DNA of 64,000 nucleotides from Leptotrichia sp. oral taxon 847 (GTDB taxonomy: Bacteria; Fusobacteriota; Fusobacteriia; Fusobacteriales; Leptotrichiaceae). Location: contig NZ_CP014231.1 of the NCBI RefSeq assembly GCF_001553645.1, positions 930,001-994,000 of the forward strand, given 5' to 3'. The notes beneath the pieces are model-generated. The model was given only the letters and a program-made list of their open reading frames with translations, was not told the origin of the DNA and ran no database searches. A program made the position numbers and the translations under genes. Position 1 is the first letter of the stretch; every line of letters starts with the position of its first letter. Shown one piece after another: positions 28,041 through 64,000 of this stretch.

Positions 28041-29390
28041 ATGAAAAAATTTAATTTTTCGGTTGATTTGATAAATGATAATATTTTGAAGTCGCTTCTG
28101 ATTTTTTCGGTACCGATACTTGTGTCGAATATTTTTCAGCAGCTTTACAATATGGCGGATATTGCTATTGTGGGGCATACTTTGGGAGATAACTCGCTTG
28201 CGGCTATTGGGGCTTCGGCGGCTATTTTTGAGCTGATTTTTGGATTTGCGTTAGGAATCGGAAATGGGCTTAGTATGGTTACTGCTAGAAATTATGGGGC
28301 GAATAATAAGAATCTTTTGAAAAAGTCTGTAGCTGGTTCAATTGTTATTGGAATCTGGATTACTGTGGGAGTAATGATTTTATCACGGTTTATTCTTATG
28401 CCGCTGCTAAAAATTTTGCATACGCCTGAAAATATTATAAAAGAAGCATTTGAATACATAAACATAATAACAATATTTATTGGTGTCACTTTTTCATACA
28501 ACTTGTCATCAGGACTTTTGCGTGCAATCGGAAACAGTTTTATGTCGCTTGTATTTTTGGTAATTGCCTCAATTTTAAATATTTTTCTTGATATTTATTT
28601 TATAACTTCCCTTAAAATGGGAATTGGCGGAGCTGCGGTTGCAACAGTTATTGCACAGGCAATTTCAGTTATCTTGAGTATTATCTACATTTACGTAAAA
28701 GAGCCAATTTTAATACCTAGAAAAAAACATTTCAGATTTGATAAAAAATTGTACAAGGAACTGCTTGGACAGGGACTTTCTATGGGATTTATGATTGCAA
28801 TTGTTCTTATGGGAACGCTGATTTTACAGTATGCGATAAATGGGTTTGGGTACTTGATTATCGCTGGGCATACTTCGGCAAGAAAACTTATGGGATTTTG
28901 CAACATTCCGCTAACTACAATAGCACTCGCACTTGCAACTTTCGTTTCCCAAAATAAAGGTGCAAACAAAGTAGATAGAATCCGAAAAGGCGTATTTTAC
29001 GCTAATATGATGGATATAATTTTTGCAATTGGAATCACAATTTTTGTATATTTATTTTCCAAAAACATGATCCATCTGATGTCAGGTTCTGAATCTGAAA
29101 TCGTTCTCCACAACGGCTCAACCTACCTAAAAATCGCCTCTCCATTTTTCACAATACTAGGAGTTCTTCTTAACTTGCGATACGCTTTACAGGCTCTTGG
29201 AGAGAAATTAATCCCTCTTGTTTCCAGTATAATCGAATTTTTTGGAAAAATAATCTTCGTAATTTTTATCGTGCCGAAATTGGGTTATTTTGGAGTAATG
29301 ATTTGCGAGCCACTGATTTGGATTGTAATGGTGGGGCAACTGGGAATTGCGTTTTATGGGAATAGGTATGTGAAAAATTACGAGAAATAG
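28041..29390 (+). CDS. MATE family efflux transporter
   Basis: A 449-residue multidrug and toxin extrusion protein with about 12 hydrophobic segments. The N-terminal IFSVPILVSNIFQQLYNMADIAIVGHTLG motif and the matching second-half ATFVSQNKGANKVDRIRKG are characteristic. It exports cationic drugs or metabolites using a Na+ or H+ gradient. It starts 84 bp after the pseudouridine synthase and ends 12 bp before the large STAND gene, which may therefore share its transcript. Confidence 0.93.
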   Translation: MKKFNFSVDLINDNILKSLLIFSVPILVSNIFQQLYNMADIAIVGHTLGDNSLAAIGASAAIFELIFGFALGIGNGLSMVTARNYGANNKNLLKKSVAGSIVIGIWITVGVMILSRFILMPLLKILHTPENIIKEAFEYINIITIFIGVTFSYNLSSGLLRAIGNSFMSLVFLVIASILNIFLDIYFITSLKMGIGGAAVATVIAQAISVILSIIYIYVKEPILIPRKKHFRFDKKLYKELLGQGLSMGFMIAIVLMGTLILQYAINGFGYLIIAGHTSARKLMGFCNIPLTTIALALATFVSQNKGANKVDRIRKGVFYANMMDIIFAIGITIFVYLFSKNMIHLMSGSESEIVLHNGSTYLKIASPFFTILGVLLNLRYALQALGEKLIPLVSSIIEFFGKIIFVIFIVPKLGYFGVMICEPLIWIVMVGQLGIAFYGNRYVKNYEK

Positions 29391-29402
29391 AAAGGATGAA
29401 AA

Positions 29403-32400
29403 ATGAATTGGAAAATTTTTGAAGTAAAGTATGAAGGAAAAGAAACGTCTAAATTTGAAGAATTAGCATATAAACTATTCTGTTCAGAATTTGAATGTGA
29501 AACAGGAATATTCAGATACCATAATCAAACTGGTATTGAAACAGAGCCAATAAATAAAAATGGAAAAAATTATGGTTTTCAAGCTAAATATTATACTACT
29601 TCAATTAGTTCAAATAAAACTGATATTATAAATTCAATAAAAAAAGCAAAATCAAAAAATCCTGCATTAAATATAATATATTTATATCTTAACAAAGAAT
29701 TATCTGAAAGTTCTAAAATTAACCAAAAAAAACCAAGCTATCAAATGGAAATTGAAAAAGATGCTAAAAAACTGCAAATTGAAATTGTATGGAGAGTTCC
29801 AAGTAATTTAGAAATACAATTATCACTTCCAGAAAATAGGCACATTTATAATGAATTTTTTCATTTAGGAGAAATAATTGAAGATGAAAAATTAATTTCT
29901 CAGATTAAAAATTTAAACAATGAATACAAGAAACTTTTTTCTTCTTTGAAAGCAGGGTTAATAGAAAGAAAAGAAACATATGATTGTATAGAAAAAATAA
30001 AAAAAGATAATTCAATAATTATTCATGGAAAAGCAGGATATGGAAAAAGTGGTTGTACTATGGGAATAATAAATTATTGTGAAGAAAAAGAAATAGAATA
30101 CATTGCTATAAAGTTAGATAAACGTATTCCTAATGGAAATTTATCAGATTGGAGCAAAAAATTAGGTTTTCCTTTAACTATACCAGAAGTAATCAATCAA
30201 ATTTCATCTGATAAAAAAGCAGTTATTATATTAGATCAATTAGATGCTATACGATGGACAGAATCAAATTCTTATGAAGCAATTTCAATTTGTACAGAGT
30301 TGATAAATAAAGTAAAAAAATTGAATATAGACAGGGAACAAAAAATTTCTATTATTTTTGTATGTAGAACATATGATTTAGAAAATGATAATAATATCAA
30401 ATTCTTATTCAATCAAAATAATGAAAATGAATTAAAATGGAAAAAAATAGAAGTAGAAAAATTAAGCAAAGAAGATACAAAAGAACTTGTGGGAGAAAAA
30501 TATTTAAATTTTATTCCTAAATTAAAAGATTTATTAAGAATACCTAGTAATTTATATATTTGGGAACATTTAGATTTTAAAAAAGATGAGATACAGTATA
30601 ATATTACAACAACAAAGGATTTAATCAAAAAATGGTTTGAACAATTACAAGATAAAGTTATGGAATCAGGATTCATAAAAACTGAAAAAATTGAAGAAGT
30701 TAAGAATATACTGATTAGTGATTTAGAAAAAAGTGGAAAATTATATTCTCAAAAAAGAAAATTTAATAGTGTTAAGGAAGGATTAAAATATCTGAATTCT
30801 GCTGGAATGTTAAATATTCAAGAAGATAAAGTGTCATTTTTTCATCAATCAATATTTGATTATTTTATATCAGAACTAATGATAGAAAAATTTGAGGAAG
30901 GATTAGATATAATAGAAATTATCGGAGATAAAGATAAGCAAACTCCAAACAGACGTTATCAAATTCAAATGTTTTTACAAACTTTATTAGAAGAAAACAG
31001 TGAAGAGTTTCTTGATTTTGGAGAAAAGTTACTTGACAATGATGGAGTAAGATATTATATAAAAAATTTATTTTATGAAATTTTAGGTCAGGTTTCAAAA
31101 GAAGAAATAGATGAAGTTATTTCAGAATATATTATTGAAAATTGTGAAAGAGAAGATATATTTAATGAAATAATATATGGTAGGAAACAATATATTTCTA
31201 TATTGAGAGATAATCAAGTTTTAGATAAATGGTTTAATAATAATTTAAGTGAAAAAGAAAAAGTTTTCAAATTACTGCAAAGTCAGATATATTTTTATAA
31301 TAATTTTGATATCAAAGATTTTGAATTTATTCAAAAATATAGTTTTAAAAATTTGGAAGACGACAAAAAAATTATAGAAACTATTCAGAAAGATAAAATG
31401 TATAATGAGATAGATAAAATATTTGATTTGAGAATTGAATTTTATAAAAAATACCCTGAATGGATTGATAGATATATAGATATTAAGGAAATACCGAAAA
31501 AAGAAGAAAGAATGATTATATTTTTAGAGTTATGCTTATCTAAGAAGAGGGAAATTGGTATTCAAATATTAGACGAATATCAGATTCAAAATATTTTTGA
31601 GTATTTTACTCAAAATGAAATAAAAAATGAAGAATTTATATTTGAAAAACTTTTGGAGAAAGTACCTGGATATAAGTATGAAGATATAAAATATAAAAAT
31701 TGTGATTGGAATGGAAGTAATAAGAAATACACAATTGAAAGACTATGTTTAGAATTATTGAAAAGAGCAAGTATAAAGTTAGTTTTAAATAATGATTTTG
31801 ATAAATTTTATTCATATTATGAAAAATATATTGGAAAAGATTTTGTATTATTTAATGAAATTATATTACATTCTTTTGAAGTTGCTGATGTGAAGTATAG
31901 TGATAAAATAATAAAGTATATATGTGAAAATTTTGAAGAAAATAAAATTTTTGATATAACAAGTGATTCAAATGATAAATTAAAAGTATTAAAAAATATT
32001 ATAAAAAAACATTCTGAAAATTGTAATGAAGAATTATATTTAAAATTGGAAGATAAAATTTATTTTTACTGTGATCCATATTATAGAATACATTTGGAAT
32101 ACTACAGAAAAAATAAGAATAAAACTATAGTAGATTGTAATATAAAAATAAATGGTCAATTGCAGAAGGAATTATTTTCTTATCTGCCTTTAAATAGAAA
32201 AAGCAAAAAAATAGAAGATTTAGAAAAAGTATTGGAAAGAAAATTTTTAAATGATAAAATTACAAAGTTTAAAAAAGGAAATAATTTTTATGGAGGAACA
32301 GTTGTATCTCCGATAAAAAGCAAAGAAATAGGAGAAAAACAATGGTTAAAAATATTAACTAATAAAAAATTATATGATAAAAAATCACAAAAAAAAGTTG

Positions 32401-33749
32401 AAGAGGGATTTATTGAAAGTTCTTTAGAAATGTACACGATAGAATTTTCAAGAGCTGTATCAAGAAATCCACAAAAAATGATAGACTTAGTAATAAAAAA
32501 CAAAAAGGATGTATTGAAAGAATTTATAGAACCATTATTTGATGGAGTTTCGAGAAGTGAGTATTTAAACAAACTTTCACAAAAAAAATTAGAGAAATTA
32601 TTTTTAGAATTTCCTTGTGATTATAAAAGTCGAAGAGCTATTTATTTTTGTGATATTATTAGAGAAAGAAGTAATTTTAAATGGTCTAACAAAATATTAG
32701 AGCATTTAAAAGATATAGTGGTTAATCATAATGATTTTAAAAGTAGAGAATTAAACATATGGAGTTCAGGGAAAGAAAATATAAATAATATTGCCCCTGA
32801 TAGCATTTTATTAAATTCAATTAATGGTTTAAGTGGAAGTTGGACAGGTGCCGTAAGTCAAATACTAAGAAATACTCCTGAATTATTTTATGAATTTAAA
32901 GATTTTATCGAAAAAATAATACAAAATGAAAATATAATAATAAATTTTTCTGTTTTTGAGATATTAAATATAACTTGTAATATTGAAAAAGAATGGACTT
33001 TAGAAAAAGTAATAAATTTATATGAAAAGGATATTAGATTGATAAATGGATATTATTCTTCAATAATGGATAAACTATACTATTCCAAATATAAAGAAAG
33101 ATTTGTTAAAATAATAGAAAAATGTTACAATTCTCAATATAAAGACCTAATTAAAATAGGAGCAATATATATAGTAAACTCATATTTAATTTATGGTGAT
33201 TTTAAAGATAAAATAGAAAAAATTTATTTAATAGACGGAGAAAAGCTGAACTATATTTTGGAAGAATTAATAAATAAGTTTGATAGTAGTATAAAATATA
33301 ATAATGAAATAAAAGAAATAATACTAAAATTAAAAGAAAAAGAATTAAATTATTATTCTTTAGAAAAATTATTTAATCATAGAAAAATAGATTTATCAAG
33401 AGATAAGGAATTTTTATTAGAGCTTATGAAATTTAAAAATATTGATAAAATAATTCATTCTTTTTTAGAATATTTAGAGGAAAGAGCAGTTTCAATTTTA
33501 GATTATGCAGATATAATTATTAATTTATGTGAAAATATCTTAAGTAAAGATAAAAAATTATTACAATCTGAATTAATGATAATGTCAGATATTTCAAAAC
33601 TCACAGTTAAGCTATATGATGAAACTTCAAATAGTAAATTAAATAAAAATAAAGAAATAGCTATGAAATGTTTAGATTTTTGGGATATAATGTACGAAAA
33701 AGGGTTAGTATATGCAAGAGAAGCAATAAAAGAGTTGATGAATAGATAA
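29403..33749 (+). CDS. Large STAND NTPase with predicted N-terminal nuclease domain (Avs-like)
   Basis: A 1448-residue protein with a three-part layout. Residues of about 1-155 look like a PD-(D/E)XK-type nuclease: FEELAYKLF, then GIETEPI and FQAKYY (positions 44-50 and 59-64), a plausible Glu-x(n)-Gln-x-Lys catalytic set. Residues of about 190-490 form a NACHT/STAND NTPase with Walker A GKAGYGKSG (209-217), Walker B VIILDQLDAI (274-283), a sensor-like FVCRTYD and FFHQSIFDYF at the winged-helix end. About 950 Lys/Glu/Ile-rich helical residues follow with no catalytic motif, likely the ligand sensor. This architecture matches antiviral STAND (Avs) proteins, which oligomerise on phage proteins and activate the nuclease. 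A small winged-helix gene and an IS256 follow. The defence role is inferred. Confidence 0.75.
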   Translation: MNWKIFEVKYEGKETSKFEELAYKLFCSEFECETGIFRYHNQTGIETEPINKNGKNYGFQAKYYTTSISSNKTDIINSIKKAKSKNPALNIIYLYLNKELSESSKINQKKPSYQMEIEKDAKKLQIEIVWRVPSNLEIQLSLPENRHIYNEFFHLGEIIEDEKLISQIKNLNNEYKKLFSSLKAGLIERKETYDCIEKIKKDNSIIIHGKAGYGKSGCTMGIINYCEEKEIEYIAIKLDKRIPNGNLSDWSKKLGFPLTIPEVINQISSDKKAVIILDQLDAIRWTESNSYEAISICTELINKVKKLNIDREQKISIIFVCRTYDLENDNNIKFLFNQNNENELKWKKIEVEKLSKEDTKELVGEKYLNFIPKLKDLLRIPSNLYIWEHLDFKKDEIQYNITTTKDLIKKWFEQLQDKVMESGFIKTEKIEEVKNILISDLEKSGKLYSQKRKFNSVKEGLKYLNSAGMLNIQEDKVSFFHQSIFDYFISELMIEKFEEGLDIIEIIGDKDKQTPNRRYQIQMFLQTLLEENSEEFLDFGEKLLDNDGVRYYIKNLFYEILGQVSKEEIDEVISEYIIENCEREDIFNEIIYGRKQYISILRDNQVLDKWFNNNLSEKEKVFKLLQSQIYFYNNFDIKDFEFIQKYSFKNLEDDKKIIETIQKDKMYNEIDKIFDLRIEFYKKYPEWIDRYIDIKEIPKKEERMIIFLELCLSKKREIGIQILDEYQIQNIFEYFTQNEIKNEEFIFEKLLEKVPGYKYEDIKYKNCDWNGSNKKYTIERLCLELLKRASIKLVLNNDFDKFYSYYEKYIGKDFVLFNEIILHSFEVADVKYSDKIIKYICENFEENKIFDITSDSNDKLKVLKNIIKKHSENCNEELYLKLEDKIYFYCDPYYRIHLEYYRKNKNKTIVDCNIKINGQLQKELFSYLPLNRKSKKIEDLEKVLERKFLNDKITKFKKGNNFYGGTVVSPIKSKEIGEKQWLKILTNKKLYDKKSQKKVEEGFIESSLEMYTIEFSRAVSRNPQKMIDLVIKNKKDVLKEFIEPLFDGVSRSEYLNKLSQKKLEKLFLEFPCDYKSRRAIYFCDIIRERSNFKWSNKILEHLKDIVVNHNDFKSRELNIWSSGKENINNIAPDSILLNSINGLSGSWTGAVSQILRNTPELFYEFKDFIEKIIQNENIIINFSVFEILNITCNIEKEWTLEKVINLYEKDIRLINGYYSSIMDKLYYSKYKERFVKIIEKCYNSQYKDLIKIGAIYIVNSYLIYGDFKDKIEKIYLIDGEKLNYILEELINKFDSSIKYNNEIKEIILKLKEKELNYYSLEKLFNHRKIDLSRDKEFLLELMKFKNIDKIIHSFLEYLEERAVSILDYADIIINLCENILSKDKKLLQSELMIMSDISKLTVKLYDETSNSKLNKNKEIAMKCLDFWDIMYEKGLVYAREAIKELMNR

Positions 33750-33776
33750 TAAATCAAAAAAAGAAAGATTTTAGAA

Positions 33777-33992
33777 GTGCAAATTCAAAAGATAATGGAG
33801 TTTTTTGAAACTAATGATGAACTTACACGATTGGAATTAGAAAAACTTTTGAATGTAAAAGAAAGTCGTGCGAGAGATTTGTTAAGATATTTGGTGAAAA
33901 ATAATATGTTACAAAAAATAGGAGCAACTAGAAATATCAGATATATAAAGACCGTCGGAAAAAATCAATCGCAAAAACCATCGGAAAAATGA
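33777..33992 (+). CDS. Small winged-helix DNA-binding protein
   Basis: A 71-residue protein starting at GTG 33777 (or ATG 33795), 27 bp after the STAND gene. The fold pattern IMEFFETNDELTRLELEKLL, then VKESRARDLLRYLVKNNMLQKIGATRNIRYI is a MarR/HTH_24-type winged helix, like the C-terminal module of AlbA/RecG-like ATP-binding proteins. It could be a regulator of the defence gene or a stranded C-terminal domain. Its last residues come from a TCGGAAAAA-rich repeat that also occurs beyond the IS256, so the natural C-terminus may be altered. Confidence 0.55.
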   Translation: MQIQKIMEFFETNDELTRLELEKLLNVKESRARDLLRYLVKNNMLQKIGATRNIRYIKTVGKNQSQKPSEK

Positions 33993-34066
33993 TATAAACA
34001 AATTGCTTCAAATACTTAAAGATAGGGATTTTTGAGAAAATATTATTAAATTCGATTGGTAAAAAA

Positions 34067-35428
34067 GGGTGTGTAAAAATTTTTGTGTAAACCTCTAAAT
34101 AATATATGGTAAAATAACTGTATAATATTTGGAGGTTTTTGTTATGACTAAAAAGAAAATTGACAACGAAATTTTTAAAACACTGATTGAGGATTACAAT
34201 ATTAAAGATACTAATGATATTAAGGATATGCTTAAGGATTTGCTTTCGGGTACTATCCAAACCATGCTTGAAGCTGAAATTGAGCATGAACTGGGGTATG
34301 CTAAACATTCTATGAAAGATAAGACTACTTCTAATGCTAGAAATGGACATTCCAAGAAAACTGTTAGAAGTGAGTATGGCAATCTTGATTTAGATATTCC
34401 TAGAGATAGAAATGCTGAGTTTGAGCCTCAAATCATCCCTAAATATCAAAGAGAAATTACTGGCATTGAAGGACAGATTCTTTCTCTTTATGCTAAAGGA
34501 ATGAGCAATAGAGATATCGAGGACCATCTCAATAATCTTTATGGAATTGATGTTTCGCCATCTATGATCAGTAAAATTACAGATAAAATTATACCTGAAA
34601 TTAGGGAATGGCAGTCTAGACAGCTTGAGGATGTATACCCAATAGTTTTTATGGATGCTATCCATTACAGCGTAAGAAAAGATGGAGTTGTTGTTAAAAA
34701 GGCGGTATATTTAGCTATAGGAATAGATAAGGAAGGGCGAAAGGAGGTCTTAGGATTTTGGATAGGAGAAAATGAATCAAGCAAGTACTGGCTAAATGTT
34801 TTAAATGAATTAAAAAACAGAGGAGTTCAGGATATACTAATTATGTCTGTTGATAATTTAAAAGGGTTCAGCGAAGCAATATCTTCGGTGTTCCCTAAGA
34901 CAGAAATTCAAAAATGTGTGGTTCATCAAATTAGAAACAGCATAAGATACATATCTTACAAAGATGTAAGGGAATTTACATCAGACTTAAAAGAAATGTA
35001 CAATGCACCAACACTGGAACAGGCAGAGTTTAAACTGGATGAACTAGAAGAAAAATGGGGTAAAAAGTATATGGCAGTAATTAATTCCTGGAGAAGTAAC
35101 TGGAATGAGTTGACAACATACTTTAAATATGATACAAAGATAAGAAAGCTGATATATACGACAAACCCGATAGAAAGCTTAAACAGACAATTAAGAAAGT
35201 ATACGAAGACAAAATCACTTTATCCGACAGATGAAGCATTGATGAAGTCAGTATATTTAAGTTTAAAGGAAGCAACAAGGAAATGGACTGGAAGAATACC
35301 GGGCTGGGGAGAAATATATTCTCAGTTAAGTATTTATTTTGAAGGAAGGATTTAAAAACAGGATGATAAAAATACCATCCTGTACCATATATTATATTTT
35401 GAGTTTACACAAAATTCTGGACACTCTC
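34067..35428 (+). mobile_element. IS256-family insertion sequence, copy A (intact)
   Basis: A 1362-bp element with imperfect 26-nt terminal inverted repeats (20 of 26 positions match, the inner TTTTGTGTAAAC perfectly). It is flanked on both sides by GTAAAAAA (34059-34066 and 35429-35436), an 8-bp target duplication typical of the family. It contains one complete transposase gene. It is collinear and apparently identical with copy B at 53808-55169. Confidence 0.95.
34144..35355 (+). CDS. IS256-family transposase
   Basis: A 403-residue DDE transposase (mutator type) from ATG 34144, which follows TTGGAGG. Catalytic residues can be placed at VYPIVFMDAIHYSV (first Asp), ILIMSVDNLKGFSEAI (second Asp) and TTNPIESLNRQLRKYTKTK (Glu). 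The N-terminal third carries the DNA-binding helices (EIEHELGYAKHS, then NARNGHSKKT). It is complete and presumably active, identical to the copy at 53885. Confidence 0.96.
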   Translation: MTKKKIDNEIFKTLIEDYNIKDTNDIKDMLKDLLSGTIQTMLEAEIEHELGYAKHSMKDKTTSNARNGHSKKTVRSEYGNLDLDIPRDRNAEFEPQIIPKYQREITGIEGQILSLYAKGMSNRDIEDHLNNLYGIDVSPSMISKITDKIIPEIREWQSRQLEDVYPIVFMDAIHYSVRKDGVVVKKAVYLAIGIDKEGRKEVLGFWIGENESSKYWLNVLNELKNRGVQDILIMSVDNLKGFSEAISSVFPKTEIQKCVVHQIRNSIRYISYKDVREFTSDLKEMYNAPTLEQAEFKLDELEEKWGKKYMAVINSWRSNWNELTTYFKYDTKIRKLIYTTNPIESLNRQLRKYTKTKSLYPTDEALMKSVYLSLKEATRKWTGRIPGWGEIYSQLSIYFEGRI

Positions 35429-35452
35429 GTAAAAAACCGTCGGAAAAAAATC

Positions 35453-35484
35453 AAGCAACGAAAATCACTAAGAAATCGTTGCTT
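35453..35484. repeat. Hairpin after IS256 copy A
   Basis: AAGCAACGA and TCGTTGCTT form a perfect 9-bp stem with a 14-nt loop, preceded by CCGTCGGAAAAA, a motif also found at 33952 on the other side of the IS. It would be a plus-strand stop signal for the STAND-HTH transcript before the IS inserted, although no T-tract follows. Confidence 0.4.
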
Positions 35485-35518
35485 AAAAATTATTAATTAT
35501 TTTTTGTATTTTGATAAT

Positions 35519-35932
35519 TTAATTTGTTATAAGACTGCAAAGTTTTTTGTTATCTGAAATACGATATAAATCCATTTTAGGTCTATTTTTTTTATCAAAC
35601 GAATAAGATAGTTTGTAATTTGAAAAAACTTGTGTTTTGTCACTCAAGTTTGTAAAATAGATAGAATTTTCATTTTCTTTTACTTCGTAATCTAATTGTG
35701 AAAGTTCAAGCGAAACTTTTCCTGTTTTTAATGCTGCACGATTATCCAATATGCTAACTGAAATAGACGGCTTGCCGTTTTCATTCAAGAATTTTATATA
35801 AGTAAGTCCCTTAAAAGTTCTGTCAACAGAATGAGGACATCTCCAAACTTCAGAAGATATTTGGTCGATATTAGTGTCAGAAAAACTTAAACTGCAAATT
35901 AACAAAGAAAATAAAAATATAATTTTTTTCAT
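35519..35932 (-). CDS. Small secreted protein, unrecognised
   Basis: A 137-residue protein from ATG 35932, which has AGGAGTGA before it; a longer frame to 35962 would bury that site. MKKIIFLFSLLICSLSFS is a clear signal peptide. The mature protein is mostly alternating strand pattern (SVSILDNRAALKTGKVSLEL, then SIYFTNLSDKTQVF), suggesting a small beta-rich periplasmic or surface protein. It is divergent from a LysR gene 183 bp away, the usual geometry for a LysR target, so that regulator may control it. Confidence 0.6.
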   Translation of the reverse strand: MKKIIFLFSLLICSLSFSDTNIDQISSEVWRCPHSVDRTFKGLTYIKFLNENGKPSISVSILDNRAALKTGKVSLELSQLDYEVKENENSIYFTNLSDKTQVFSNYKLSYSFDKKNRPKMDLYRISDNKKLCSLITN

Positions 35933-36115
35933 AAAATCACTCCTAAATAATAAATTTTGCATATATTTTATAATATTTTTTTAGGAAAATCAATAATAAA
36001 AACTAATATTTATAATTTCACATATTTAGTATAATATAAAACAATAAAAATATCTAATATTTATAATTAACACTCAACCATTATTTTTAGTTATAATAAA
36101 AAGAAGGAGGCAAAA

Positions 36116-53742: not shown

Positions 53743-53807
53743 GAGAAATTTTTTTAATTGATTATAAATAAGAGAAATAATAAATTTTTTATGTGAATCA
53801 TAGAAAT

Positions 53808-55169
53808 GGGTGTGTAAAAATTTTTGTGTAAACCTCTAAATAATATATGGTAAAATAACTGTATAATATTTGGAGGTTTTTGTTATGACTAAAAAGAAAA
53901 TTGACAACGAAATTTTTAAAACACTGATTGAGGATTACAATATTAAAGATACTAATGATATTAAGGATATGCTTAAGGATTTGCTTTCGGGTACTATCCA
54001 AACCATGCTTGAAGCTGAAATTGAGCATGAACTGGGGTATGCTAAACATTCTATGAAAGATAAGACTACTTCTAATGCTAGAAATGGACATTCCAAGAAA
54101 ACTGTTAGAAGTGAGTATGGCAATCTTGATTTAGATATTCCTAGAGATAGAAATGCTGAGTTTGAGCCTCAAATCATCCCTAAATATCAAAGAGAAATTA
54201 CTGGCATTGAAGGACAGATTCTTTCTCTTTATGCTAAAGGAATGAGCAATAGAGATATCGAGGACCATCTCAATAATCTTTATGGAATTGATGTTTCGCC
54301 ATCTATGATCAGTAAAATTACAGATAAAATTATACCTGAAATTAGGGAATGGCAGTCTAGACAGCTTGAGGATGTATACCCAATAGTTTTTATGGATGCT
54401 ATCCATTACAGCGTAAGAAAAGATGGAGTTGTTGTTAAAAAGGCGGTATATTTAGCTATAGGAATAGATAAGGAAGGGCGAAAGGAGGTCTTAGGATTTT
54501 GGATAGGAGAAAATGAATCAAGCAAGTACTGGCTAAATGTTTTAAATGAATTAAAAAACAGAGGAGTTCAGGATATACTAATTATGTCTGTTGATAATTT
54601 AAAAGGGTTCAGCGAAGCAATATCTTCGGTGTTCCCTAAGACAGAAATTCAAAAATGTGTGGTTCATCAAATTAGAAACAGCATAAGATACATATCTTAC
54701 AAAGATGTAAGGGAATTTACATCAGACTTAAAAGAAATGTACAATGCACCAACACTGGAACAGGCAGAGTTTAAACTGGATGAACTAGAAGAAAAATGGG
54801 GTAAAAAGTATATGGCAGTAATTAATTCCTGGAGAAGTAACTGGAATGAGTTGACAACATACTTTAAATATGATACAAAGATAAGAAAGCTGATATATAC
54901 GACAAACCCGATAGAAAGCTTAAACAGACAATTAAGAAAGTATACGAAGACAAAATCACTTTATCCGACAGATGAAGCATTGATGAAGTCAGTATATTTA
55001 AGTTTAAAGGAAGCAACAAGGAAATGGACTGGAAGAATACCGGGCTGGGGAGAAATATATTCTCAGTTAAGTATTTATTTTGAAGGAAGGATTTAAAAAC
55101 AGGATGATAAAAATACCATCCTGTACCATATATTATATTTTGAGTTTACACAAAATTCTGGACACTCTC
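53808..55169 (+). mobile_element. IS256-family insertion sequence, copy B
   Basis: The same 1362-bp element as 34067-35428, same orientation, with both inverted repeats present. Its flanks differ (ATAGAAAT before, TTTTTGGA after), so no target duplication is visible. It marks the boundary between hemZ and the toxin island. Confidence 0.94.
53885..55096 (+). CDS. IS256-family transposase
   Basis: A 403-residue DDE transposase from ATG 53885 after TTGGAGG, identical to the copy at 34144, with the same Asp, Asp and Glu motifs. Complete. Confidence 0.96.
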   Translation: MTKKKIDNEIFKTLIEDYNIKDTNDIKDMLKDLLSGTIQTMLEAEIEHELGYAKHSMKDKTTSNARNGHSKKTVRSEYGNLDLDIPRDRNAEFEPQIIPKYQREITGIEGQILSLYAKGMSNRDIEDHLNNLYGIDVSPSMISKITDKIIPEIREWQSRQLEDVYPIVFMDAIHYSVRKDGVVVKKAVYLAIGIDKEGRKEVLGFWIGENESSKYWLNVLNELKNRGVQDILIMSVDNLKGFSEAISSVFPKTEIQKCVVHQIRNSIRYISYKDVREFTSDLKEMYNAPTLEQAEFKLDELEEKWGKKYMAVINSWRSNWNELTTYFKYDTKIRKLIYTTNPIESLNRQLRKYTKTKSLYPTDEALMKSVYLSLKEATRKWTGRIPGWGEIYSQLSIYFEGRI

Positions 55170-60917: not shown

Positions 60918-63900
60918 TTAATGCCATTTATTATATTGTGCTTTTGTTATAACACCATCTTTTAGCATTTGTTTTAATACATCTGGTGGAACTTGTTGAC
61001 TTTTTATTTGTTTATCCGTTAGTTCATACGCGTGCCATTCATTATTAGTGCCAGTTGGTTGAAATTTTATCATTTTCCCTTTATATATAGCAAACCTCTG
61101 TTTTTTGGTCGCCGAATTATAAGAATGATTTTTTAATAAATCATTACCTGTTTTAATATCAGGAATTGAATCGGGACTTGCATTTGGAGGCATTTTAGGT
61201 CCTTTATGTTTTGGGGATGGTTTATATTCTCCATTAAAGTGCCCTCTTCTTACAATCATTTCTGTTGAAGGTTTAGAAGAATTCCCTTTATTTTTAATTT
61301 TAGCTTCTTTAGCCTGTTTTTCAAATTTAGTAACTTCATCTGACTTCAATGCTATTTTTGAACCATCTGATAATACTACTCCTTGAGTAACTCTTTCTCC
61401 ATTAGTAACTTTGCTTATTTTTCCTGTTTTTCTTGTTGAAGTTATAACTTTTATTACTCTTTTTAATTTTTTCTTATTTTTTATTATTTTATCTGCTACT
61501 TTTATTATTTTACCTGTTGCTTTTACTCCTTTAACTGTTGCTTTTGCACCTGGAATTATTCCCATCACTCTTGAAAATAGGTCAATTTTTTCACCAGTTA
61601 CTAAATCTCTCCCCGTTATTCCTTCAGCTATACCTTTTGCTGTTCCAACATAAGGTACGGAATCTAGAAGAGTACTTGTAATTTCTTTTCCTTTTCCATT
61701 TCCCACATTTTCTCCAAAATCAATTCCAGAATAGTCAATCCCATCAGATTTATGAATTATTAACTTGTCAGCATCATCTTTATATTTTTCTTGGAAATAT
61801 TCATTAGTTGCTCTTCCTGTACTTTCAAGTCCTTTTTCTTCAGTTCCTGTTTCTATTTGTCTTCCTTCAACTCCATTTATAATATGGCTTCCTTCTTCTG
61901 CAATTACTCCAATAAGTCCTGTTTTTGTTTGATTTTCCTCAGCATTTTCATTGATAAATATTGTTTTTTCACCTGTTTTTTTATTTATATAAGCTGTTCC
62001 AGCCTTTGGTTTTCCATTTTCATCAATTAATTGACTAGCATGTTCAGGTGTTGTAAAAATTACTCTTACATTTTTATATCCCAAATCAGAGTAAGCCTCT
62101 TCAAAGGCACTTGCTATTTCTTTTCTTGTTTGTGCAACTTTCAATCTCTCTCCAGCAATATTATTGACTGTTTCAGAAAGTCTAGTTTCTCTCAACTGTC
62201 CAAAGAAATTTCTGTTGTCATCTCCTGGGTCATGAATTGAATTATCAAGTGCCTTTGTAACATCCTTTATTTCATCTTTAGCCTTATTCAAATCTTCTTT
62301 CAACTTACCAGGATTAGTAGCATACTCAATAGTCTGGCTCTCAATATTAACATTCGTAGAATGATGTTCATCTTTTGTAACTTCATTAGCTTTTGTAATA
62401 TCCCTATTTATTGGACTTCCAGAAGCTTCTCCTATTTCTACATTTCCAACTACCGTATTTCTAGTTACTCCCTGTTTATCTCTATCATCTTGATTAAATC
62501 CAATATTTGTAACTCTAGGAGATTTTCCTAATGAAGTCCCTACTGAAATTCCTGTTGTTGTCATTGTATCGTAGTTTTGAATATCATGCCCAACATACTT
62601 ATCAACTTTAAATGTAGTACCATTTTCACTCTGTTTTCCAATAATAGCTCCAGTATTTTCAACTGTTCCAACATGAAGATTACTTCCCTCTCCAACAATA
62701 AAGCTGCTTTGATTATCTACAAATGCTCTACTTCCGCTTGTTCTGCTTCCATTTACATTTAAAGAACTAGGAACTCCATTTGCACTTATTCCTACACTTG
62801 CTCCGCTTGATCTTCCAGTTGTCGTGCTTGTGTTCTGTCTGCTTTCTACAACCAGCTTGCCGATATTACCTGTAACTTTTCCGCCTTCCTGGTTAAATCC
62901 TGAAAGTGTCATTGTACCAGTATTATTGTGAACTTCATTTACATTTTGAAAATTACCATTTTGATAAATAGTTTCAGTTGTATTCAAATTACTTCTATTT
63001 GCAGAAACACTTCCACCATTTCCAGTAATCTGTGTTCCGTAGCCATATCCAATTGTCGCTCCCGTACTTATTCCAAAGTTTGAACTTCTTGAACTGCTGC
63101 TGTTATGAAGTTCCACTGCTTCCTTCCGAATATTTTTAACATTGTTGTAGATAAATGTTCCGCCTTGTGCCTGTGTCCCCTGATAAGTTATGTTGTTTAC
63201 ATTGTTGTAGGTAATGCTAGAATTTTCATTCATTGGTTTCATTGTCGTAACTACAGCACTTTCATTGTGGGAGTTGTTACTGTTTTTAGAAGTAGAATAT
63301 CCTGCATTTACTCCAATATTTGCATAAAAGTTATTGTTTGCACTCGCATTTCTTACTTCACTTTGACTTAAATTTCCTGTGTGATAAGCCTGTCTTGTCC
63401 CTTGATTCCCTGCAAGTCCTGAAACCATTCCAGTTCCTGCATTTACTCCAGCTACAAGTCCACCTATCGTATCTCCTCTTCTAACTTGCTTTACAGCTCC
63501 AGCTGCTTGTTCCACTCTATCTTTTATTGGACTATTTATTCCAATTGACACACCAAAATTACTGCTTCTTGAAGTAGTTTTTACATCTCTTGTATCAATT
63601 CTTGCACCATATTTTACATCACCATTATTAATCTGAATATTTCCATACTCAAAATTTGTTGCCGTAATTTCTGCTCCGTTATTTAGCACACTTCCATCGC
63701 CAATTCTTAAATTTGATTTGGCATTTATCGTATCTTTTTCATCATAGGTGCTGCTTGACTTTCCATAATTTAATGAAGCCGTTCCGTGACTAATTCCTGC
63801 ACTAAATCCTCTGGATGTATTTTTTTCATAAAAACTATTATGTAATTCTCTCGAATCTGTTGTCAATTTTCCGCCAACAAAGGTATTTTCACCTAAATCA

Positions 63901-64000
63901 ATGTTACTTCCGATTCCTGTCAAGTTTCCTTCGATTCTTGCTCCACTAAGCTGTAAATTTCCTGCAACATTTTCTTCCTGATGAGATTTTATGTATGTAC
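60918..64000 (-). CDS. CdiA/filamentous-haemagglutinin-like toxin protein, C-terminal part
   Basis: The frame runs from a stop at 60918 through the window edge, so only the last 1027 residues are visible; a TTG near 63923 is not the true start. The visible part consists of Asn/Ser/Gly-rich haemagglutinin-type beta-helix repeats (EAVELHNSSSSRSSNFGIS, repeated SRSSNFG-like units), then a segment with VIAEEGSHIING, then GRDLVTGEKIDLFSRVMG, a pretoxin TG-type motif. A Lys-rich linker leads to the variable toxin end: RFAIYKGKMIKFQPTGTNN, then WHAYELT and VPPDVLKQMLKDGVI. It is exported by a two-partner CdiB-type pore (not in window) and delivers the toxin tip to neighbouring cells. The toxin activity is unknown. 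Confidence 0.88.
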   Translation of the reverse strand, partial: TYIKSHQEENVAGNLQLSGARIEGNLTGIGSNIDLGENTFVGGKLTTDSRELHNSFYEKNTSRGFSAGISHGTASLNYGKSSSTYDEKDTINAKSNLRIGDGSVLNNGAEITATNFEYGNIQINNGDVKYGARIDTRDVKTTSRSSNFGVSIGINSPIKDRVEQAAGAVKQVRRGDTIGGLVAGVNAGTGMVSGLAGNQGTRQAYHTGNLSQSEVRNASANNNFYANIGVNAGYSTSKNSNNSHNESAVVTTMKPMNENSSITYNNVNNITYQGTQAQGGTFIYNNVKNIRKEAVELHNSSSSRSSNFGISTGATIGYGYGTQITGNGGSVSANRSNLNTTETIYQNGNFQNVNEVHNNTGTMTLSGFNQEGGKVTGNIGKLVVESRQNTSTTTGRSSGASVGISANGVPSSLNVNGSRTSGSRAFVDNQSSFIVGEGSNLHVGTVENTGAIIGKQSENGTTFKVDKYVGHDIQNYDTMTTTGISVGTSLGKSPRVTNIGFNQDDRDKQGVTRNTVVGNVEIGEASGSPINRDITKANEVTKDEHHSTNVNIESQTIEYATNPGKLKEDLNKAKDEIKDVTKALDNSIHDPGDDNRNFFGQLRETRLSETVNNIAGERLKVAQTRKEIASAFEEAYSDLGYKNVRVIFTTPEHASQLIDENGKPKAGTAYINKKTGEKTIFINENAEENQTKTGLIGVIAEEGSHIINGVEGRQIETGTEEKGLESTGRATNEYFQEKYKDDADKLIIHKSDGIDYSGIDFGENVGNGKGKEITSTLLDSVPYVGTAKGIAEGITGRDLVTGEKIDLFSRVMGIIPGAKATVKGVKATGKIIKVADKIIKNKKKLKRVIKVITSTRKTGKISKVTNGERVTQGVVLSDGSKIALKSDEVTKFEKQAKEAKIKNKGNSSKPSTEMIVRRGHFNGEYKPSPKHKGPKMPPNASPDSIPDIKTGNDLLKNHSYNSATKKQRFAIYKGKMIKFQPTGTNNEWHAYELTDKQIKSQQVPPDVLKQMLKDGVITKAQYNKWH

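Follow-up and report, generated by a model that had tools for sequence, protein, structure and literature searches.

The gene at 29403-33749 on the plus strand of the window (i.e., the whole 64,000-nucleotide stretch of DNA that was analysed) encodes a 1448-residue STAND receptor that is, as judged from its sequence relationships, a chimera, in which an Avs4-type nuclease is fused to the NTPase and sensor of a separate family. It is very likely an anti-phage receptor, Avs-like in its build, that was made by effector exchange: an Avs4-type effector carried on a switch and sensor that belong to a different receptor family, in a chromosomal slot shared with anti-phage genes, is probably a recombined phage alarm.

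The receptor gene

The reading frame begins with an ATG located 12 bases downstream of the MATE gene and preceded by a GAAAGGA-type site (a plausible ribosome-binding site), and is fully open, with the NTPase motifs and invariant nuclease residues retained. Its G+C content is 21.5% versus 29.1% for the window, and no second copy was found in the 2.19-Mb single-contig genome. The gene comprises three parts, all on the plus strand: the effector (29403-29885, about residues 1-161), the STAND NTPase with a winged helix (29898-30842, about residues 166-480) and the C-terminal sensor (30843-33746, residues 481-1448), a predicted solenoid of HEAT/ARM-like type that includes a small beta insertion. 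According to PMC12931631, STAND proteins carry the effector at the N-terminus, the NTPase in the centre and the sensor at the C-terminus. The GIETEP...GFQAKYY stretch spans residues 44-64, the Walker A motif GKAGYGKSG residues 209-217 (including K215) and the Walker B motif VIILDQLDAI residues 274-283, and about 970 mostly helical residues lie downstream of the Walker motifs. This confirms the ORF and motifs of the preliminary description, which had reported a 1448-residue protein with a nuclease-like N-terminus, both Walker motifs and a long helical part. The ORF is more than a chance open frame, since the nuclease matches EcAvs4 (E 7e-34) and, for the NTPase and the sensor, nine relatives gave matches with E-values no higher than 2e-62.

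An Avs4-type nuclease effector

The effector segment shows 38% identity to EcAvs4 in segment-wise BLASTP, and the PADLOC Avs4 profile matches residues 1-554 of the window protein (hmmscan, E 9.8e-57). The NCBIfam Avs4 profile scores 240.8 bits over residues 2-550 only, missing its cut-off of 1500 bits, while EcAvs4, taken as a control, is matched by the PADLOC Avs4 model over residues 1-1587 with 2361.8 bits. That both profiles reach into the NTPase, to about residue 550, is as expected of distant STAND relatives. A phmmer search of the PDB gave a single match, EcAvs4 8dgf (E 1.5e-25, residues 2-222), an entry titled 'Avs4 bound to phage PhiV-1 portal'. E19, N41, Q42, E46, Q60 and K62 are among the residues invariant in the three sequences of alignment A3 (window protein, EcAvs4 and a Moraxella plasmid protein); they include Q60 and K62, which had already been singled out as key residues, and E46, Q60 and K62 make up an E...QxK motif that we take to be the catalytic motif of Mrr/PD-(D/E)XK nucleases, Mrr being our presumptive name. 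Nuclease activity of the effector is predicted from this homology and motif.

The domain matches agree with the earlier view of an Avs-like STAND protein with a nuclease effector. The N-terminus had also been regarded as new, being unlike DUF4297/Cap4, and hence as the mark of an undescribed Avs subtype; the PADLOC and 8dgf matches identify it instead as the Avs4 nuclease, so that this reason falls, while the combination of domains is indeed undescribed within the literature searched, outside which lay preprints and most subscription papers.

When the effector was compared by BLASTP with proteins having the same sensor family, the best E-value was only 0.6. Among plasmids the effector occurs in 35 records (31 Escherichia, 3 Salmonella and 1 Moraxella), and none was found in the viral contigs scanned. 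The Avs4 profile at E 0.001 matches in 50 of the 98 genomes of the phylum; among the matches listed, those outside the window genome are all short and nearly all over the P-loop region.

NTPase and sensor of a separate family

The NTPase (residues 186-480) is 45-49% identical and the sensor 33-39% identical to those of nine relatives (G035 and eight loci; BLASTP), with two far relatives, EP7 and L030, at 19-26%. Walker A and Walker B are kept in the 19 rows of the NTPase alignment A4. By contrast, EcAvs4 gives no BLASTP match to the window NTPase at E 10, and its best match to the window sensor has an E-value of 4.8. The sensor profile A2 was built from the window protein and 20 of 25 loci (24 from the genome collection, one from a viral contig), leaving out near copies (L021, L032), broken frames (L025, L029) and an altered C-terminus (L026); near copies among the 24 loci are L009/L010/L021 and L013/L015. 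Comparison of this 21-row profile with the EcAvs4 sensor, for which the Avs4 side was a single sequence, yielded an hhalign probability of 0.9%, and the profile did not retrieve 8dgf at E 10.

The sensor is covered by no PADLOC or NCBIfam model: residues 551-1448 are matched by no PADLOC model at E 1, and this comparison, made with models, includes those of Avs1, Avs2, Avs3 and Avs5. One of six relatives (L030) has weak Avs2 matches confined to the P-loop (E 0.009 and 0.024). PADLOC PDC-M54A matches only the NTPase in the window protein (5.8e-10) and, in four of the six relatives, an additional HEAT stretch of 57-82 residues (E 4e-6 to 0.014). At the level of sequence comparison, the sensor is thus not recognisably that of Avs4.

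Predicted structure

The AlphaFold2 model of the sensor (pLDDT 81.6, pTM 0.53) consists mainly of helices; a small beta insertion lies close to model residues 486-527. Its matches are generic HEAT/ARM proteins (Foldseek best E 4e-6, TM about 0.2; VIA-align best Z 14.4, rmsd 13.7). Neither Avs3 (8dgc) nor Avs4 (8dgf) is present among the best 50 matches listed for this model by Foldseek and VIA-align. Sensor profiles match PDB sequences weakly, the best being PI4KA (E 0.0036 over about 90 positions), and a 3-row sensor profile weakly matches the phage capsid protein MCP1 (0.028). The sensor is predicted, from the model, to be a HEAT-type solenoid.

In the model of nuclease and NTPase together the NTPase part is good, with NLRP9 as best VIA-align match (Z 19.8, rmsd 4.1, 305 residues; Avs4 Z 14.8) and Z-scores of 17-20 for the aligned NTPase folds of NLRP9, NLRP3, NLRC4 and NOD2; Walker A, Walker B, a winged helix and an NLR-like fold characterize it as a STAND NTPase. 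The effector part has pLDDT mostly under 50, and its fold model is unusable because homologous rows are absent for the effector.

The NTPase profile finds PDB 9n00 (E 5e-13), and a profile of Cap4-type proteins finds it at 1.7e-28, the sensor stretch aligning only weakly; phmmer with L030 alone did not retrieve it. PDB 9n00, 9n01 and 9yix, a 1523-aa 'AAA family ATPase', are the sole solved match (E 0.01) to Cap4-type proteins of the sensor family, and our literature search found no paper on these entries.

A genuine but diverged Avs4 with phage portal as its trigger, its sensor having drifted past recognition, would share the same effector, would be aligned by the NCBIfam and PADLOC profiles to residues 550-554, and would agree with Avs4 being the best Foldseek match of the nuclease and NTPase model (E 6e-12). 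We regard it as highly improbable, because the NTPase and sensor group with a family whose effectors are different (33-49% identity) and because of the BLASTP, hhalign and NCBIfam results; drift does not explain why only the effector resembles Avs4. A full-length Avs4 is ruled out by the NCBIfam score, BLASTP and hhalign.

Distribution of the sensor family and its effectors

The sensor is present in two of the 98 phylum genomes, the window genome and G035, and at 24 loci of the genome-collection scan, mostly from Lachnospiraceae and other Bacillota (mainly gut), with all 968 sensor residues matched at 33-39% identity in 20 of them. The N-terminus is Cap4-like in 22 of the 24 loci (four with a broken frame, L019, L024, L025 and L029, and one cut by a contig end), a presumptive label that is based on a common motif and a sub-threshold match to Pfam PF14130 (E 0.029, in L030 only among five proteins scanned). 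L016 is truncated and adjoins a recombinase-like gene. At L017:4528-8886, from a Sporosarcina MAG, the sensor family is joined to an N-terminal domain that is helical, unrelated and about 180 residues long; the start codon is uncertain.

The G035 protein has a trypsin-like protease effector (Trypsin_2 E 0.0013, sub-threshold; LmuA 1.2e-23), with an MBL hydrolase gene upstream (LmuA 2.2e-77, Avs1a 6.9e-36). The combination of Avs4 nuclease with the window NTPase and sensor is found in one of the 98 phylum genomes and in none of the 24 sensor loci. In a survey of the class with A2 at E 0.001, 9 of 391 genomes were matched; three were set aside (G176, G461 and G228, with matches of 76-78 residues, E 3e-5 to 3e-4, in an unrelated-looking cluster), and the other six, which include the genome of L012 (G098) and apparently that of L015 (G171), all have a Cap4-like N-terminus. 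The sensor was seen in one plasmid record only (EP7) and in one putative viral contig, the same in two scans, and no matches were found in phage records.

On a Moraxella osloensis plasmid (AP031474.1, L134:5986-9732), an Avs4-type nuclease is fused to a PD-Lambda-4_A backbone (PD-Lambda-4_A 5.6e-127, Avs4 2.3e-67), a second natural effector swap.

Ten neighbouring proteins, chosen by eye at five loci of relatives, were scanned, and restriction genes adjoin three of these loci: L026 has a type I methyltransferase (4.5e-194) and a specificity gene (6.5e-89), L030 has a restriction gene of type I (E 0), and near L011 there is one of type IV (2.6e-102). Among the scanned neighbours they were absent at L015, near which there is a weak RT-protease match (9e-15), and at L020, where no such match was obtained.

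Phylogeny of the receptor backbone

The phylogeny of NTPase and sensor (24 rows, midpoint root) places the window protein and the protease-bearing G035 protein as sisters (96/95), nested within a group of 12 (94/92, just below the mark of the tool) and then within a group of 20 (100/100). The other rows of these groups bear Cap4, save L017 and the truncated L016, and so do the outer rows. This nesting among Cap4-bearing rows indicates that the older effector was probably Cap4-like and has since been replaced. The four effector labels require three changes on the tree, the minimum possible, but shuffled labels need equally few, so that the label count is uninformative by itself. The tree contains long branches (L030, L031, G138 and EP7) and rows of uneven composition, that of the window protein included. 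The long window branch without any stop suggests, by inference, maintained selection.

A variable chromosomal slot

The receptor gene lies in a slot (28041-35962; loci L069-L080 elsewhere) whose contents vary across the 13 genomes of the genus. Its left border is a MATE gene (28041-29390, plus strand; MatE 2e-45) and its right border a small exported-protein gene (35519-35962, minus strand), each with a match in all 13 genomes, close in the case of the MATE gene, which is split in G072 and has an internal stop in G069; the right-border gene is broken in G071. Defence-system matches are strongest in G071 (AbiP2 reverse transcriptase 9.2e-176 plus AbiJ_NTD3 5.5e-49) and G072 (Dodola; DolA 3.2e-66, DolB 8.5e-129), then in G076 (a GmrSD_N protein, 2.8e-31; HEC-06 7.1e-45), the models matched by a kinase in G078 (mad6 1.9e-26) and by AlbA genes being broad. 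The slot of G070 holds an SLFN_AlbA_2 gene and a small membrane-protein-like ORF, and those of G073, G074 and G075 an AlbA remnant together with two genes named by eye, one nitronate-monooxygenase-like and the other for an HxlR-like regulator; G079 is rearranged, with transposase-like ORFs and an AlbA remnant, and G077 and G080 are empty. No integrase-like ORF was seen in the slot by eye. In G069 there is a 492-aa gene (L074:380-1858), a candidate defence gene, in which the stretch EIDIY...IVECKG is PD-(D/E)XK-like and for which the PADLOC match is weak (7.8e-5).

The slot is a hotspot of the genus, with defence genes counted in this one slot across 13 genomes. The defence occupants in sister genomes, together with the restriction genes near relatives, make the earlier assignment of the receptor as a defence gene very probably correct. 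Against this stand the occurrence of the architecture in one genome and the fact that 3 of 12 sister slots hold metabolic-looking genes and an AlbA remnant, with one rearranged and two empty.

STAND proteins also serve other roles, and the window protein could be a switch acting against plasmids or in stress rather than against phage. We consider this very improbable, given that its effector is common to Avs4 and a PD-Lambda-4_A-type protein, that the slot has several defence occupants and that restriction genes lie near three of the five relatives scanned.

Downstream DNA and integrity of the locus

Downstream of the receptor stop there is one extra TAA, followed in frame by codons of an SLFN_AlbA_2 gene. 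The segment 33751-34066 (plus strand) is the 3' remnant of this older gene, 98.1% identical to L069:1857-2172 of the sister genome G070, where the intact counterpart occupies the same slot (484 aa; SLFN_AlbA_2 2.3e-22, HATPase_c_4 7.3e-23), and lies outside the receptor system. The 71-aa ORF at 33777-33992, previously taken for a companion winged-helix gene, is part of this remnant, its GTG at 33777 being an internal codon since the frame is that of SLFN_AlbA_2; a companion HTH regulator is thereby ruled out. As the remnant matches the end of the SLFN_AlbA_2 gene, the receptor appears to have replaced most of the older gene.

An IS256-family element follows at 34067-35428 (plus strand; NF033543 3.4e-132; ends read from the sequence), flanked by an 8-bp target duplication, GTAAAAAA, at 34059-34066 and 35429-35436. 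A second copy at 53801-55169 is 99.85% identical, which suggests recent transposition. The IS said to accompany the receptor is thus present, but as a separate insertion; the duplication and the second copy rule it out as a part of the system. Further along, a 1001-aa protein (60918-63923, minus strand) with a haemagglutinin repeat and a Pre-toxin TG domain (Pfam 6.4e-16 and 5.1e-9) resembles a segment of a toxin gene of the contact-dependent or polymorphic type.

The nearby IS256 insertion, the low G+C content, the restriction to a single genome and the four broken frames among 24 related loci would be compatible with a defence gene that has lost its function, either a misfit chimera or a decaying copy. 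The open frame with its start signal, the retained motifs and invariant residues and the long branch without a stop make this a remote prospect.

Proposed mode of action

Given the observed anatomy, motifs, family relations and locus, a course of action can be proposed for the anti-phage receptor, in which binding, assembly, cleavage and cell death are modelled on the Avs proteins that have been studied. In the uninfected cell the receptor would be held off; upon infection a phage protein would bind the solenoid, and ATP binding would lead to subunit assembly, bringing the nuclease domains together. The nuclease would then cut DNA, phage production would stop and the cell would probably die. 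Since the trigger is expected to go with the sensor, and the window sensor is not recognisably that of Avs4, portal is not the default guess.

More tentatively, and with somewhat less than an even chance in our estimation, the NTPase-sensor block may be a portable detector whose target is neither portal nor terminase but another phage protein, driving interchangeable weapons (a Cap4-like nuclease, a protease with an MBL partner, the Avs4 nuclease and possibly one more). On this view the Avs4 nuclease, in turn, would be a portable weapon of at least three detectors, and receptors would be rebuilt in nature through swaps at a single linker around residue 165.

Comparison with known systems

Effector exchange among STAND receptors is a generally accepted idea. 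The added interest here lies in exchange in both directions, the sensor occurring with other effectors and the effector on other backbones, together with the hotspot. A single sensor that occurs with three plainly distinct weapons, and a single weapon that occurs on three backbones, constitute a natural domain swap, with which one may ask if the trigger goes with the sensor and if ATP-driven assembly alone fires unrelated effectors. The detector family lies outside the PADLOC Avs models, and the compact single-slot hotspot is a source for further systems, e.g., the 492-aa PD-(D/E)XK-like gene of G069.

The window protein resembles Avs4 in its N-terminal nuclease, which is homologous and shares the invariant residues, in its three-part order and in its STAND NTPase fold, and differs in an NTPase and sensor unmatched by BLASTP, a sensor also unmatched by hhalign, and a score below the NCBIfam Avs4 cut-off. 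With the Cap4-like-STAND-HEAT family, found mainly in gut Bacillota, it shares NTPase and sensor from end to end, whereas that family carries a Cap4-like effector in nearly all its loci in place of the Avs4 nuclease; we found no family name for it, and its closest references are a partial PADLOC PDC-M54A match and the distant solved relative 9n00. The STAND protein with an MBL hydrolase and a trypsin-like protease in the same phylum (G035, L005), a layout that we presume to be like AVAST type 1, is sister in the tree and has the same sensor family, but differs in the protease effector and MBL partner. Finally, the PD-Lambda-4_A protein of the Moraxella plasmid has the same nuclease type as the window protein, in contrast with its other NTPase and sensor.
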